From contig NZ_CP076326.1 of NCBI RefSeq assembly GCF_018771565.1, positions 2,859,785-2,923,784 on the forward strand: 64,000 nucleotides of DNA. The letters run 5' to 3'. Position 1 is the first letter of the stretch; each line of letters begins with the position of its first letter. Below are positions 2,954 through 64,000 of the stretch, piece by piece. Source of the stretch: Thermoflexus hugenholtzii. Its GTDB lineage: Bacteria > Chloroflexota > Anaerolineae > Thermoflexales > Thermoflexaceae. A program made the position numbers and the translations under genes. Below the pieces are notes generated by a model. That model had not been told where the DNA came from, did no database searches, and saw nothing but the letters and a program-made list of their open reading frames with translations.

Positions 2954-6570
<3,617 letters not shown>

Positions 6571-14847: not shown

Positions 14848-15927
14848 TTATCCTTCCGTGTCCATCACGATCTTGCGGCGATAGCGCGCATACGTGGCGT
14901 AATCGATCACGACCCGCCGGGCGATGTAATCCCGGGTCCGAGGCGCCCGGCCCCGGCGCTCCTGGATGGCCTCGGTGACCACAAAGGAGAAAGCGTCGGA
15001 TCCCGCTCCGGAACCGAAGGAGACCGCCAGGATCCGATCGCCGGGTTGAGCCTCGTCCAGGATGGCCGTGAGCCCGATGAGACAGGACCCGGCATAGGTG
15101 TTGCCGATCTCATCCACCAGCAGGCCGGTCCGGATCTGCTCGGGGCGGAACCCGAGCATCGCCGCGACCTTCTGGGGGAACTTGACGTTGGGCTGATGGA
15201 AGACCGCGTAGGCGTAATCCTCCGGCCGCATTCCCAGGGCCTCCATCAGGCGCCGGGCGGCCTCGGTGATGTGATGGAAGTAGGCGGGCTCGCCGGTGAA
15301 GCGCCCTCCATGCTCCGGGTAGCGGGCGTGGGCCCGCCGCCAGAAGTCCGGGGTGTCCGTCACGTAGGAGAGGGAGCCCTCCAGGACCGCCAGGCTCTCC
15401 TCGGCGGGGCCGATGAGGAAGGCCGCTCCCCCGGCCCCGGCGGTGTATTCCAGGGCGTCCCCCGGCCGTCCCTGGGCGGTGTCCATCCCGATGGCCATGG
15501 CGTAATCCGCCATCCCGGAGCCCACCAGGCCCACCGCCGCCTGCATCGCCTCGGTCCCCGCCTTGCAGGCGAACTCCCAGTCGCCGGCCTGCACGAAGGG
15601 CGTGGCCCCGAGGGCCTCGGCGACGATGGTGCCGCTGGGCTTGACCGCATACGGGTGGGACTCGCTGCCCACCCACACCGCCCGCAGGCGGTTGGGCGGG
15701 ATGCCCGCCCGGGCCAGGGCGTTGCGGGCGGCTTCGATGGACATGGTCACCACGTCCTCATCGGGCCCGGGCACTGCTTTCTCCCGGATGGGGGGCGGCT
15801 CCGCCCCGCCGGTCCATAGCCGGGAGATCTCCACGCCCGGCAGCCGGTAACGGGGGACGTAGGCGCCGTAGCCCACGATCCCCACCGGCCGGGCCGGCTT
15901 CATGATCCGATGGCCGTTCTCCAGCAT
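14848..15927 (-). CDS. Hydroxymethylglutaryl-CoA synthase (archaeal type)
   Basis: About 359 residues from [16 protein letters not shown]. The start at 15927 is chosen because GGAGG lies six bases upstream; an in-frame start at 15981 lacks such a site. The enzyme adds acetyl-CoA to acetoacetyl-CoA. The catalytic Cys is in [14 protein letters not shown] and the His in [25 protein letters not shown] at the N-terminus is typical of the archaeal branch. It is the first gene of the synthase-thiolase-DUF35 operon. Upstream lies a 770-base non-coding region filled with repeats, so its promoter must be close or within that region. Confidence 0.9.
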
Positions 15928-16039
15928 CGGAAACCTCCGATCGGTGACTGTTCGCTCGTTTCTTCGCCGGGACGGGTCCACAACGGAAGCGCCATCAAAC
16001 GTCGCGGCGAAAGGTGCCGAAATGGATTTCGGCTTACTC

Positions 16040-16593
16040 AGGAGGGGCTTTCGCCCCGCGCTTGGGCTTCGATCCTGTCAGGGTCGCGAAGGTCGCGGCG
16101 GAAGCCGCTCCGGCAACTCCCAGCCTCTGGTTTTCGATGACGGAAAGGTCGCGGCTGAAGCCGCTCCTACGAAAATCGGTTTTTGGTAGGAGGGGCTTTC
16201 GCCCCGAACCCCTTTGTCTTCGATGACGCAGAGGTCGCGGCGAAAGCCGCTCTGATAACTCTGAACCTCCGTCCTCGATGACGGAAAGGTCGCGGCTAAA
16301 GCCGCTCCTACAGACGTTGATCCTCCTGTAGGAGGGGCTTTCGCCCCGAACCTCCGTCCTCGATGACGCAAGGGTCGCAATGAAAGCCGCTCCGATAACT
16401 CCCAACCTCCGGTTCTCGATGACGCAAGGGTCGCGGCTAAAGCCGCTCCTACAAAAAGATGGTTTCTGTAGGAGAGGCTTTCGCCCCGAACCTCCCGTCT
16501 TCGATGACGCAAGGGTTGCGACGGAAGCCGCTCCGGCAACGCCCAGCCTCTGGTTTTCGATGACGGAAAGGTCGCGGCTGAAGCCGCTCCTAC
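16040..16593. repeat. Tandem array of paired inverted REP-like elements, 141-base period
   Basis: The 770-base gap between HMG-CoA synthase and the DinB-like gene (15928-16697) holds no gene. It contains about four copies of a unit of about 141 bases. Each unit has an inverted REP reading (reverse strand) GTAGGAGCGGCTTTAGCC plus GCGACC, at 16147, 16288, 16429 and 16570. About 16 bases later comes a forward element starting GTAGGAGGGGCTTTCGCCCC, with copies near 16040, 16187, 16329 and 16469. A third hairpin part starts near 16092, 16233, 16372 and 16514. Spacing is 139-147 bases. The head-to-head layout matches a BIME (paired REPs). Because 141 is a multiple of three, a long false reading frame crosses the array on the minus strand. 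Confidence 0.9.
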
Positions 16594-16632
16594 AGGATGG
16601 TTTCCCCCATTCGTGTATTCGTGCTCCCGATT

Positions 16633-16671
16633 CGTGGACGGCCCCTTATCTCTCGTCATCATCGGTCGCGG
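16633..16671. repeat. 39-base dispersed module at the edge of the REP array
   Basis: CGTGGACGGCCCCTTATC followed by TCTCGTCATCATCGG closely matches 25523-25561 at the second REP locus, with a few substitutions over 39 bases. It closes the array on the DinB side. The same module beside REPs at two loci suggests that it belongs to the repeat unit. Confidence 0.75.
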
Positions 16672-16697
16672 CGGAGGCGGCTCCCACCCCATTGCGT

Positions 16698-17408
16698 TCA
16701 GGGGCCGGGTTCCCAGCCCAGCGCCCGGCGCAGCTGATGGAGATGGGCGATGTGGTCCCGCTCGTGCCACGCCGCCCGGCGCAACACCTTGCGGGGGGAC
16801 CAGAACTCCCCCTCCACGCCGACCACGAGGGACCGGCCGATCCAGTCCTGAAGGGCCTGCTCCAGGGCCCGGCGCACCGTCTCCAGGTGCGCCCATACCT
16901 CGGCGGGGGGATCCTTCACCTCCCGTCCTAAGCGGCTGAGATACCAGTTCTCCCCCCGGGCCACATGGCGCAGGACTCCCCGCATGGACCATCGCTGGCC
17001 GGGCAGCACGGTATCCAGGACCGGGTCGGGCAGCCCGGCCACCGCCGCCTGCAGGTCCTTCCGGGAGGCGGCCAGCACCTGCAGGGCGAATTCCACCTCC
17101 TCCTCGGTCAGCGGCCGCCAGTCGTCCAGGAACCAGGCGTTGATCTCGCGGGTGCCGCCCCGCTCGAATCGCTCGTTGATGGTGTAAACCTCGAAGATCT
17201 CCACCACCCGGAAATCCTCCGGGACACCCGGGCCGGCGGCGGGGATGCCATGGGCGCCCAGCCAGGCGAAGTAGTCTCGAATGGCCTCGGGGATCCGGGC
17301 CAGGACCTCCCGTTCGGTAGGGCCGAAGGCGAAGCAGCCCGGGTAATCCAGGACCCAGGCCAGATGCCCGCCTTCCGCGCCGCGCTCCAGACCCACGCGA
17401 TAGGGCAC
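16698..17408 (-). CDS. HicB-like / DinB-family fusion protein
   Basis: 236 residues from a GTG at 17408, chosen because an AAGGGGGA ribosome site precedes it and the homologous N-terminal segment PYRVGLERGAEGGHLAW begins there. Residues 1-60 resemble the HicB beta fold (HLAWVLDYPGCFAFGPTERE). Residues about 85-236 are DinB-like, with the metal-type histidines in LRHVARGENWY and HERDHIAHLHQL. It starts five bases after the HMG-CoA reductase stop and is probably co-transcribed with it. DinB-fold proteins are often thiol-dependent metalloenzymes; the substrate is unknown. Confidence 0.75.
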   Translation of the reverse strand: MPYRVGLERGAEGGHLAWVLDYPGCFAFGPTEREVLARIPEAIRDYFAWLGAHGIPAAGPGVPEDFRVVEIFEVYTINERFERGGTREINAWFLDDWRPLTEEEVEFALQVLAASRKDLQAAVAGLPDPVLDTVLPGQRWSMRGVLRHVARGENWYLSRLGREVKDPPAEVWAHLETVRRALEQALQDWIGRSLVVGVEGEFWSPRKVLRRAAWHERDHIAHLHQLRRALGWEPGP

Positions 17409-17413
17409 CGGAG

Positions 17414-18724
17414 TTATCCCCCTTTGTGGATTTCCCCTGCCTGAGCCCGCCAGGCCTGCAGCAGCTCGCGAGCGCGGGCCAGGCGGATGTTCCCCTCCGC
17501 CACCATCTGATCGGCGATGGCATCGATCTCGGCGCCGGTGGCGCCGGCGGCCATGGCGATCTGCCGGGCGTGCAGGGCCATATGCCCTCGCTGGATCCCC
17601 TCCGTCGCCAGGGCCCGCAGGGCCGCCAGGTTCTGGGCCAGGCCCACGGCCGCCATGATCTCGGCCAGCTCCCGGGCAGAGGTGACGCCCAGGATCTTCA
17701 ACGCCACCCGGGCCAGCGGATGAGCCTGGGTGGCTCCCCCCACGATCCCCACGGCCAGGGGCAGCTCGATCCGTCCGCACAGGGCGCCGGTTTCGTCCTG
17801 CCACCATTGGGTGAGGGGACGGTAGCGGCCGTCCCGGGCGGCATAGGCGTGGGCGCCGGCCTCGATGGCCCGCCAGTCGTTGCCGGTGGCCAGGGCCACG
17901 GCGTCGATGCCGTTCATGATCCCTTTGTTGTGCGTCGCCGCCCGGTAGGGATCCACCTCCGCCAGGGCCTGGGCCTCCAGGATCCCCCGGATCACCTGAT
18001 CGCCCGGCAGCTCCGGCGTCCCCAGGGCCTCCGCCGGGATCCGCACCTCGGCCCACGCCCGCCGGCGGTCCGCCAGGTTCGAGAGGATGCGCAGCACCAC
18101 CCGCCCTCCGGTCGCCCGGGCGATGAGGGGAGCCACGGCCTCGCAGACCGTGTTGACCGCGTTGGCCCCCATCGCGTCCCGGACGTCGTAGAAGAGATAC
18201 ACGACCAGCATCGGCCCCACTGGGGACTCGGGGAAGGAGGCCACCTCCAGGCCGCGGAAGCCGCCGCCCCGGGCCACGATGGAGGGGGTCGCCGCCTCCG
18301 CCACCACCCGGACCTCCTCCTGAAGGTCCTCCACCGCCCGGGCCGCCGCCGAGAGATCGGGCAAGTCCACGACCTGAATCTGGCCGCGCATGAGGGGCTC
18401 CTCGCTGCCCGCCCGGAACCCACCCCCTGCCCGGGCCAGCCGGGCGGCGTGGGAGAGGGCGGCCACCACCGAGGGCTCCTCGATCACCATCGGGATCAGG
18501 ACCTCCCGGCCGTTGACCTGGAAGTTCACCGCCACCGCGAACGGAAGGGCGAACCGGCCGATCACGTTCTCCACCATGTGATCGGCTTCTTCTAACGTTA
18601 AACCCCCGCTGTTCAGCCAGGCCTGCTCCTCTGGGGTCAGGCCGGCCTGTTCGGCCACCCAGCGGGCCCGCTCCGAGAGCGGGAGGCGATAGAACCCCGG
18701 ATAGCGAGATGTGCGCACGGACAT
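17414..18724 (-). CDS. Hydroxymethylglutaryl-CoA reductase, class II type
   Basis: 436 residues. It reduces HMG-CoA to mevalonate and completes the upper pathway started by the synthase-thiolase-DUF35 genes. Key residues are visible: catalytic Glu in ENVIGRF, Lys in THNKGIMNGID, Asp in ALATGNDWRAIEAG, and His in GHMALHARQ. The substrate-binding segment DVRDAMGANAVNT is intact. The opening FYRLPLSERARWVAEQAGL is typical of the bacterial class II branch. In several bacteria this class degrades mevalonate, but here it sits beside HMG-CoA synthase, so biosynthesis is more likely. Confidence 0.92.
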   Translation of the reverse strand: MSVRTSRYPGFYRLPLSERARWVAEQAGLTPEEQAWLNSGGLTLEEADHMVENVIGRFALPFAVAVNFQVNGREVLIPMVIEEPSVVAALSHAARLARAGGGFRAGSEEPLMRGQIQVVDLPDLSAAARAVEDLQEEVRVVAEAATPSIVARGGGFRGLEVASFPESPVGPMLVVYLFYDVRDAMGANAVNTVCEAVAPLIARATGGRVVLRILSNLADRRRAWAEVRIPAEALGTPELPGDQVIRGILEAQALAEVDPYRAATHNKGIMNGIDAVALATGNDWRAIEAGAHAYAARDGRYRPLTQWWQDETGALCGRIELPLAVGIVGGATQAHPLARVALKILGVTSARELAEIMAAVGLAQNLAALRALATEGIQRGHMALHARQIAMAAGATGAEIDAIADQMVAEGNIRLARARELLQAWRAQAGEIHKGG

Positions 18725-25401: not shown

Positions 25402-25561
25402 TTCTTCCTGGAGGAGGGGCTTCCGCTCCCCATCCTTAGTTTTCGATGCCTGTAGGGGTCGCAGCGGAAGCCGCTCCTATATGGGCGATTTTTCGTAGGA
25501 GGGGCTTTAGCCCCGAACCTCTTCGTGGACGGCCCCTTACCCCTCGCCATCATCGATCACG
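25402..25561. repeat. Second REP-like pair in the cyclase-transglutaminase gap
   Basis: The 400-base gap 25316-25717 holds no gene. It contains an inverted element at 25455-25480 (GGTCGCAGCGGAAGCCGCTCC) and a forward one at 25495-25518 starting GTAGGAGGGGCTTTAGCCCC, separated by about 15 bases: the same head-to-head pair as in the 16040-16593 array. A partial element starts near 25410. The module at 25523-25561 repeats 16633-16671. The remaining sequence to 25717 shows no structure I can name. Confidence 0.8.
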
Positions 25562-25717
25562 GTGGGAGCCGCTCCTCCGGCACGGGTCCTCCGGTGGGAT
25601 CCCCTGAATCCCTGTTTTCGTTTTCGATCCCGGAGGGTTCGGATTCGAGCCCCCTTCTCATAATACACCCCGGAGAGCGATGGGGGCTCTCCCCGCGGAT
25701 GGCGCGGGATCCCGGCC

Positions 25718-41551: not shown

Positions 41552-41597
41552 CGCCGGGGGCGGGGTATGTCTCGATTTTGTCGGGCCTGGCCGCCTT

Positions 41598-41625
41598 GTA
41601 GGACAACTGCTCGCAGTTGTCCTAC
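41598..41625. repeat. Perfect 12-bp hairpin GTAGGACAACTG with tetraloop
   Basis: GTAGGACAACTG, loop CTCG, then the exact complement CAGTTGTCCTAC. The leading GTAG is the tetranucleotide typical of RAYT-associated REPs. On the plus strand it is followed by GATTTT, so a weak terminator is also possible. Confidence 0.65.
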
Positions 41626-41657
41626 GATTTTGGGACACACCCGGGGGGCGGCCCGCG

Positions 41658-41686
41658 TTGACAGATCCGGCCGATTGCGGTAGATT
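41658..41686 (+). promoter_or_regulatory. Sigma70-type promoter of tRNA-Arg
   Basis: TTGACA at 41658-41663, a 17-base spacer, and TAGATT at 41681-41686, ending 12 bases before the tRNA. Confidence 0.8.
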
Positions 41687-62975: not shown

Positions 62976-64000
62976 TCAGGACGATGGCCCCAGGGGTTTG
63001 CCCTCCGAGAGGGACCAGAGGGCGGGGGGGACGAGCATCCCCTGCCGCCCGATGAGCAGCCCGACTCGCGCCCGCTGTGCCGCCTCCAGGGCCCGATGAT
63101 CCAGGGCCCGTCCGAACACCACCGGCAGCACCGGATCCCCCACCCCCTGGGCCTGCAGGCGCTCGCGGGCTTCCGGGTGCCGCAGGATCCGCTCCACGAA
63201 CTCGGTAATGGAGCGGGCCCACACCTTCGCTTTGGCCGAGACTAACAACCAGGCCTCCCGGCCGTCGGGCAGGCGGGCCCGGGCCAGGCCATCGACCTCG
63301 CCGAGGCCGTCCAGGGTGATGGAGACCACGGGGGTCAGCAGGGTGCCGCCCTGCTGGGCGATCCATTCCTGGAGGGCCTGGACCATATGTTCTTCAGTGA
63401 TGGGGCCGATGATCTGGCCGAAGTGGTCCAGGGTGCGCTGGAACTGTTCCTGGCGCAGAAGGACCTGCTGGAGGATCTCCTCCGTGCGGCGCTGGGCTTC
63501 GGCCAAGGCGCGGACCTCGGCGCTGAGCTCGGCGAAGCGGCGGTCGGTTTCGGCGCGGTGGGCGACGAATTCCTCGTAATGCCGGCGCTGGGCTTCGGCC
63601 AGTTCAGCGAAACGGCGGTCGGTTTCAGCGCGATGGGCGGCCAGGGATTCCTCGGTGCGGCGCTGGGCTTCGGCCAGCTCGGCGAAGCGGCGGTCGGTTT
63701 CGGCGCGGTGGGCGGCGAATTCCTCGTAGTGTCGGCGCTGGGCTTCGGCCAGCTCGGCGAAACGGCGGTCGGTTTCGGCGCGGTGAGCGGCCAGGGATTC
63801 CTCGGTGCGGCGCTGGGCTTCGGCCAGCTCGGCGAAGCGGCGATCGGTTTCCTCCCGATAGGCCAGGAACTCCTGGCGGTGGGCGGCGAACTCTTCGTAG
63901 TGCCGGCGCTGGGCTTCGGCCAGCTCGGCGAAGCGGCGATCGGTTTCCTCCCGATAGGCCAGGAACTCCTGACGGTGGGTGTTGAAGAGCTCGCTCAGGC
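62976..64000 (-). CDS. Coiled-coil protein with 25-residue repeats and nuclease-fold-like C-terminus (partial, starts past right edge)
   Basis: The frame is open from base 64000 down to the stop at 62976; the start codon is outside. About 160 visible residues are coiled coil made of a 25-residue unit, AELAEAQRRTEESLAAHRAE followed by TDRRF. The C-terminal 130 residues (GQIIGPITEEHMVQALQEW, DGLGEVDGLARARL, WLLVSAKAKVWARS) resemble the DUF3782 / PD-(D/E)XK group, with the usual E-x-K replaced by S-A-K, so activity is doubtful. Function unknown. Confidence 0.75.
   Translation of the reverse strand, partial: LSELFNTHRQEFLAYREETDRRFAELAEAQRRHYEEFAAHRQEFLAYREETDRRFAELAEAQRRTEESLAAHRAETDRRFAELAEAQRRHYEEFAAHRAETDRRFAELAEAQRRTEESLAAHRAETDRRFAELAEAQRRHYEEFVAHRAETDRRFAELSAEVRALAEAQRRTEEILQQVLLRQEQFQRTLDHFGQIIGPITEEHMVQALQEWIAQQGGTLLTPVVSITLDGLGEVDGLARARLPDGREAWLLVSAKAKVWARSITEFVERILRHPEARERLQAQGVGDPVLPVVFGRALDHRALEAAQRARVGLLIGRQGMLVPPALWSLSEGKPLGPSS
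63588..63920. repeat. 75-base tandem repeats coding the coiled coil
   Basis: The plus-strand core CTGGGCTTCGGCCAGCTCGG recurs near 63588, 63663, 63738, 63813 and 63909. Three steps are 75 bases and the last is 96. Near-identity between copies shows recent expansion; each step is a multiple of three, so the frame is kept. Confidence 0.85.

Follow-up and report, generated by a model that had tools for sequence, protein, structure and literature searches.

REPs and RAYT transposases have mostly been described from proteobacterial genomes, where they have persisted for a long time, and the class of REP treated here is known mainly from gammaproteobacteria. The entry of a RAYT/REP pair into a new lineage is seldom visible. 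GTAG repeats have been divided into 24 families, of which only families 1 and 2 combine a 3-base tail with two bases left unpaired ahead of the stem (PMC3733652). GTAG repeats have already been reported from Chloroflexi, including GTAG-23 of Thermomicrobium roseum (Di Nocera et al., 2013, PMC3733652). Both homodimers and heterodimers have been described, the preference for heterodimers being unexplained, and in P. putida and P. entomophila the GTAG-1 dimers are mostly homodimers (PMC3733652). Xanthomonas REPs with the head GTAGGAGCGC have been tabulated as well (Nunvar et al., 2010, Table 1, PMC2817692).

The window analysed here is a 64,000-nucleotide stretch of DNA from Thermoflexus hugenholtzii, and it contains an array of such repeats at 16038-16593. 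This array is very probably a BIME-like cluster of RAYT-driven REPs of the GTAG-1 class, probably gained from another phylum and multiplied locally through tandem duplication. With the GTAG-1 repeats of Pseudomonas, Xanthomonas, Thioalkalivibrio, and Thauera (PMC3733652) it shares the GTAG tag, the GA spacer, a short G+C-rich stem with a short loop, a 3-base tail (GAC or GAA), the clustered and intergenic placement, and the link to a RAYT. It differs from them in that the host belongs to Chloroflexota, and in that inverted neighbours in this genome always have unlike stems, while P. putida and P. entomophila mostly display homodimers. The Xanthomonas REPs (PMC2817692) have the head GTAGGAGCG and the tail GCGA(C) in common with the array, are RAYT-associated and form BIMEs, but their stem and loop sequences are different; the comparison covers the REPs. 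The E. coli BIMEs, composed of y and z REPs and found with TnpA-REP (PMC8266576; PDB 4er8), are similar in their alternating, heterotypic tandem REPs and in having an enzyme of the HUH/Y1 family. However, they are of the GTAG-3 class with bulged stems and no GA spacer, and their RAYT is distant. GTAG-23 also consists of clustered, GTAG-tagged Chloroflexi repeats, but it makes up a separate family (PMC3733652). By every testable feature, the system studied here appears to belong to, and to work like, the RAYT/REP kind. The novelty for Chloroflexi is the GTAG-1-like subtype, as GTAG repeats themselves were known there before.

The initial annotation described a 141-base-period array of paired inverted REPs. 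Such a period was called independently by TRF at 16085-16594 (3.6 copies, 81% matches), and twelve REPs could be placed in the array when the window was scanned with a 22-base consensus, allowing up to five mismatches. Of these copies of the 22-base palindrome, four are forward and eight are inverted. Each full unit has three REPs, two of them inverted, and the inverted copies are therefore twice as many as the forward copies, a detail that the initial annotation does not mention. In a full unit an intact inverted REP (GTAGGAGCGGCTTYAGCCGCGACC, C-G stem type) is followed after 15-16 bases by an intact forward REP (GTAGGAGGGGCTTTCGCCCCGAA, G-C stem type), and then, about 47 bases further on from start to start, by another inverted REP, with a decayed GTAG head. 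The gap from this REP to the next unit is 55-56 bases. The features are listed below, all single REPs and the second cluster being placed by the consensus scan.

14848-15981, minus strand: archaeal-type HMG-CoA synthase, downstream gene (NF003274 550 bits, TIGR00748 532 bits)
16038-16593, no strand assigned: REP/BIME tandem array with a 141-base unit (TRF period and 12 REP matches), flanked by the DinB-like and HMG-CoA synthase genes
16038-16059, plus strand: forward REP with decayed head (TCAGGAG)
16093-16114, minus strand: second inverted REP of a unit, without GTAG head (GCCGGAG)
16149-16170, minus strand: inverted REP, C-G type, GTAGGAGCGGCTTCAGCCGCGA, exact consensus
16186-16207, plus strand: forward REP, G-C type, GTAGGAGGGGCTTTCGCCCCGA, exact consensus
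16235-16256, minus strand: second inverted REP of a unit, without GTAG head (ATCAGAG)
16290-16311, minus strand: inverted REP, C-G type, GTAGGAGCGGCTTTAGCCGCGA, exact consensus (also hairpin fold)
16328-16349, plus strand: forward REP, G-C type, exact (also fold prediction)
16375-16396, minus strand: second inverted REP of a unit, head and stem decayed
16431-16452, minus strand: inverted REP, C-G type, exact
16468-16489, plus strand: forward REP, G-C type, single stem mismatch (GAGGC)
16516-16537, minus strand: second inverted REP of a unit, without GTAG head (GCCGGAG)
16572-16593, minus strand: inverted REP, C-G type, exact
16666-16687, minus strand: degenerate outlying REP (GTGGGAGCCGCCTCCGCCGCGA)
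16698-17444, minus strand: DinB-like gene, upstream, ending just past the array (PF12867 in the open frame 16698-18056; start inferred)
25410-25578, no strand assigned: second REP cluster of the window, decayed, with an intact forward copy (GTAGGAGGGGCTTTAGCCCCGA) at 25495-25516

A single REP is predicted to fold into a 5-bp hairpin with a 4-base loop and an unpaired GTAGGA head in front. Head-to-head dimers are predicted to form longer, interrupted hairpins (z -4.6 to -5.6 against shuffles, computed for single strands with DNA parameters). The Rfam matches on the array were animal miRNAs far below the cut-offs, and were discarded as chance matches to hairpins. A short palindrome, CCGAAATNNATTTCGGCTTAC, adjoins the array at 16017-16036, and is also present at the orthologous sites of two congeners, G402 and G269 (L198, L199). 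The array lies in the intergenic stretch between the DinB-like and the HMG-CoA synthase genes, both on the minus strand. The true start of the latter is probably near 15929, with GGAGG in front, and similarity to congeners stops at about 15943. Between 13230 and 18724 the archaeal-type HMG-CoA synthase, a thiolase-like gene, and HMG-CoA reductase are found clustered in this bacterium.

The T. hugenholtzii genome under study (G000) consists of one contig of 3.32 Mb, with 98.6% completeness and 0.72% contamination. When up to one mismatch was allowed, an 18-base core pattern was found at 270 places (141 + 129), against 5 (0 + 5) for the reversed pattern used as control. The REP count is thus far above chance, and copies are present genome-wide in the hundreds. 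REPs with up to four mismatches were also recorded in 40 stretches of 20 kb (800 kb in all), sampled at even distances along the genome. Of these, 71 of 82 were outside coding-like frames, which span 85% of the sequence and are approximate since they were set by a simple GC3 rule. Both the high copy number and the mainly intergenic placement are as in GTAG-1 repeats. Among 165 copies, the first four positions are G in 153, T in 130, A in 140, and G in 159, giving a terminal, unpaired GTAG. Positions 5-6 are GA (160 and 154 of 165) and unpaired in the folds, and the tail is GAC or GAA; this corresponds to the two GW bases before the stem and the 3-base tail of GTAG-1 (PMC3733652). Stem pair 8-19 is C-G in 91 copies, G-C in 63, and something else in 11, while C-C or G-G is found in 0 of 165. 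The compensating stem changes that had been claimed for the paired copies therefore hold across the genome.

Start spacings of 36-38, 46-48, 54-57, and 98-106 bases dominate among the REPs, as expected from the alternating inverted REPs of BIMEs and REPINs. The recurring spacings are 37, 47, 56, and about 103, and both 37+47+56 and 37+103 give a 140-base unit. This unit could be aligned over its full length across eight loci and recurs at many loci, and in the 40 sampled stretches it adjoins unrelated genes in all orientations. The identity between units is 82% within an array and 67% between arrays, which suggests that the unit has been dispersed and that the arrays then grow or homogenise locally. 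Inverted neighbours differ in their stems in 58 of 58 pairs, and six pairs that seemed homotypic proved to be a different, perfect palindrome. Exclusive heterotypic pairing is not considered a novelty, as heterodimers are known for several REP families (PMC3733652), and the RAYT loci of relatives show both kinds. A strand bias of the REPs by replichore, suggested by incomplete lists of places, was also considered, and was dropped since the sampled stretches show both orientations.

Four Y1-transposase matches were found in the genome, but only one, at C1:304634-305200, is a clear RAYT. It scores 121.5 bits against NF047646, for which the curated cut-off is 80, and its best solved relative is the E. 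coli-type TnpA-REP 4er8. The HVH motif (VMPDHVHLL) and the catalytic tyrosine (ARYIEENP; ARYIEENPVRRG) are both kept, and align with those of the relatives and of 4er8. At this locus (L032) the gene, 1363-1929, lies between 12 REPs (492-1284) and three REPs (1980-2146), which have the same unit form as in the window array and a 140-148-base period. A free-standing RAYT is thus present once, amid REPs of the array's class. The GC content of the gene is 55.6% versus 67.5% in the sample, and its GC3 is 59.3% versus about 89% in the window genes; the gene is compositionally foreign. No GTAGGAG REPs were found near the other Y1 matches at window 5498-5728 and at 2.85 Mb. An IS200-like TnpA at 1.83 Mb was rejected as mobiliser: with 25 bits it stays below the RAYT cut-off of 80, the IS200 model recognises it, and the repeats around it are of a different family. 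This TnpA (NF033573, 58 bits; L031:600-3100, G000:C1:1826771-1829271) lies within a dense array of that other family, which has 104-, 111-, and 215-base spacings and palindromes including GGCGTCGGCCTCCGCCGACGC and GGCCGAATTCATTCGGC.

Relatives of the RAYT were sought in 84,980 genomes, a set from which records of G000 or near genomes may be left out. The closest are gammaproteobacterial, namely those of Halomonadaceae (the best, 46%), Amphritea, Xanthomonadales, Thioalkalivibrio, and Pseudomonas, together with some from betaproteobacteria. Most of these relatives are flanked by REPs with a GTAGGAG or GTGGGAG (GTRGGAG) head, a stem, and a CGA tail, thus matching in head and tail, while the flanks of other Chloroflexota RAYTs display only isolated matches of the GTRGGAG/CGA type and are mostly without such REPs. 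The gammaproteobacterial MAG KW1-S08_198 (L096/G412) contains 110 strict copies of the G000 REP core. It has the exact 22-base core GTAGGAGCGGCTTYAGCCGCGA, frequently arranged as inverted pairs at distances of 47-50 bases, but among the matches listed nearly all copies have one stem type, and its RAYT, about 44% identical to that of G000, is not grouped with it in the tree. A GTAG-1 type whose 22-base core is identical to that of one gammaproteobacterium is now extended to Chloroflexota. The initial annotation had recognised the REPs as of the Pseudomonas and Xanthomonas form, linked to a RAYT and shared through specificity or transfer, and this is supported by the copy count, the RAYT, and the REPs of its relatives.

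In the tree, the RAYT is placed as sister to 34 proteobacterial-side rows (86/73) and outside them, and these rows exclude it with 100/99; the support for the sister position is moderate. The likeness of the REP cores thus fits a conserved RAYT specificity. Nesting the RAYT with individual gammaproteobacterial rows gave lower likelihoods and was not rejected (p-AU 0.06-0.11), and the naming of a donor lineage was therefore dropped. An identity of about 45% and the sister position do not seem to support a recent transfer or a sampled gammaproteobacterial donor.

The RAYT and the GTAGGAG REPs might instead be old in Chloroflexota and mostly lost, with the gammaproteobacterial likeness reflecting conserved RAYT specificity and not transfer. 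Ten to twelve other Chloroflexota RAYTs lie in the same neighbourhood of the tree, and a tree that holds the RAYT together with ten of them is 7 log units worse but not rejected (p-AU 0.27). Furthermore, one Chloroflexota RAYT locus (L062) has a GTAGGG-type repeat on both flanks, and GTAG repeats occur in several phyla (PMC3733652). Such vertical descent is nevertheless unlikely, if deserving of serious weight. The best other RAYT in the phylum reaches 81 bits and 43% identity over part of its length, and the composition of the gene is foreign. The strict REP pattern was found in 2 of 400 sampled phylum genomes, both of the same genus as G000, and in none of the other 398. A search of the eight congeners at the sensitivity used gave no close RAYT homologue, so that one was found only in G000. 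Distribution and composition thus make a horizontal transfer likely.

The order comprises nine genomes of one genus, and their strict REP counts are 173, 153 (G402), 77 (G269), 20 (G406), and five zeros. A looser head-tail pattern gives 187, 180, 80, 61, a single 1, and four zeros. Since this nine-species genus displays absence, presence with a RAYT, and presence without a detected RAYT, it allows a direct comparison of gain, amplification, and loss. The three REP-bearing genomes where the RAYT was not detected, G269, G402, and G406, are drafts of 80 to 420 contigs that are 84-97% complete, and the RAYT may therefore be hidden in an assembly gap or lost. A link between RAYT and REPs is presumptive in these three, and the chief puzzle is that REP-rich congeners have no detected RAYT. 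In G406 (L168, L172, L262, L266, L270, L272, L280) the G-C type REP is paired with a new stem, GTAGGAGCCGCTTCAGCGGCGA (GCCGC...GCGGC), and is never self-paired; 18 of 18 pairs are with the other stem.

The counts of 77 in G269 and 153 in G402 without a close RAYT match, as well as the decayed heads of many copies, would fit REPs that today spread only by recombination and replication slippage, the RAYT behind their expansion having since been lost in most congeners. It is improbable that the REPs are such orphans, as G000 retains an open RAYT with intact motifs next to exact REP copies, the arrays vary between close congeners, and draft assemblies break at repeats. A more far-reaching proposal is that a foreign-looking GTAG-1 RAYT and its REPs crossed recently from proteobacteria into this thermophilic Chloroflexota genus, reached hundreds of copies, and that the REPs outlived the RAYT in the sister species; this is put forward tentatively, its chances being somewhat short of even.

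The gene order around the array is kept in seven congeners. At the orthologous site the flanks are 96-97% identical over most of their length to those of G402, which has four REP-like copies, and G269, which has three, the copies in the two being mostly imperfect. No REPs were found at the site in five other congeners, where the flank identity is about 79-83%. With none in five congeners and three or four in two, the array appears to be young. The array site thus differs between congeners, although an insertion matched by a clean empty site was not seen. Beside the gene orthologous to the transporter gene at the RAYT locus, neither REP nor RAYT was found in the other eight genomes. Since synteny on the left side has been lost, this does not count as a clean empty site either.

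The REPs could also be mainly transcription or RNA-stability elements (attenuator, terminator, or mRNA 3' protection) whose copy number is kept by selection. Such roles have been reviewed (PMC3733652), the flanking genes share one strand, and the dimers fold better than shuffles. However, the variation at the orthologous site, the recurrence of the unit by unrelated genes in all orientations, and the several array copies without heads make a selected regulatory array very unlikely. An assembly artefact or a contaminant or chimeric contig, for which no evidence was found, has a negligible probability, given the one-contig genome with its completeness and low contamination, the flanks that align to two congeners, the conserved gene order in seven, and the REPs of the same class in three.

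For a RAYT-driven array acquired across phyla, we infer the following steps. The REPs would be non-autonomous elements that are copied as single strands by the HUH/Y1 transposase, the RAYT. This enzyme would bind the REP hairpin and the GTAG head on exposed single-stranded DNA, cut beside the hairpin, and join the strand to new sites, for the most part intergenic ones. Local lengthening of the arrays would come from tandem duplication of the 141-148-base unit. As for the direction and time of transfer, the RAYT and the REPs probably entered this Chloroflexota lineage horizontally, coming from the proteobacterial lineage of GTAG-1 RAYTs or from a source shared with that lineage, and were then amplified. 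A host function of the array at the HMG-CoA synthase site is given little weight, though it may have a weak effect on supercoiling or on the ends of transcripts. Selfish DNA of a known kind would thus be found in an unexpected phylum, Chloroflexota, with a few hundred copies and one matching RAYT in a hot-spring genome.

Other repeats and elements were also observed. A dispersed element of about 80 bases at window 41560-41660 is centred on a perfect palindrome, GTAGGACAACTGC(TC/GA)GCAGTTGTCCTAC, and its ends, GGGTGTGTCCC...GGGACACACCC, are inverted. It is found at about 14 places in some 880 kb (window 41560-41660, L223, L237, L239-L243, L246, L250, L253, L254, L258) with at least two flank types, and looks like a MITE. 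The window ends with a 75/150-base tandem repeat at 63526-63897, and a TPP riboswitch was found at L218:6067-6181 (Rfam RF00059, 61.8 bits).
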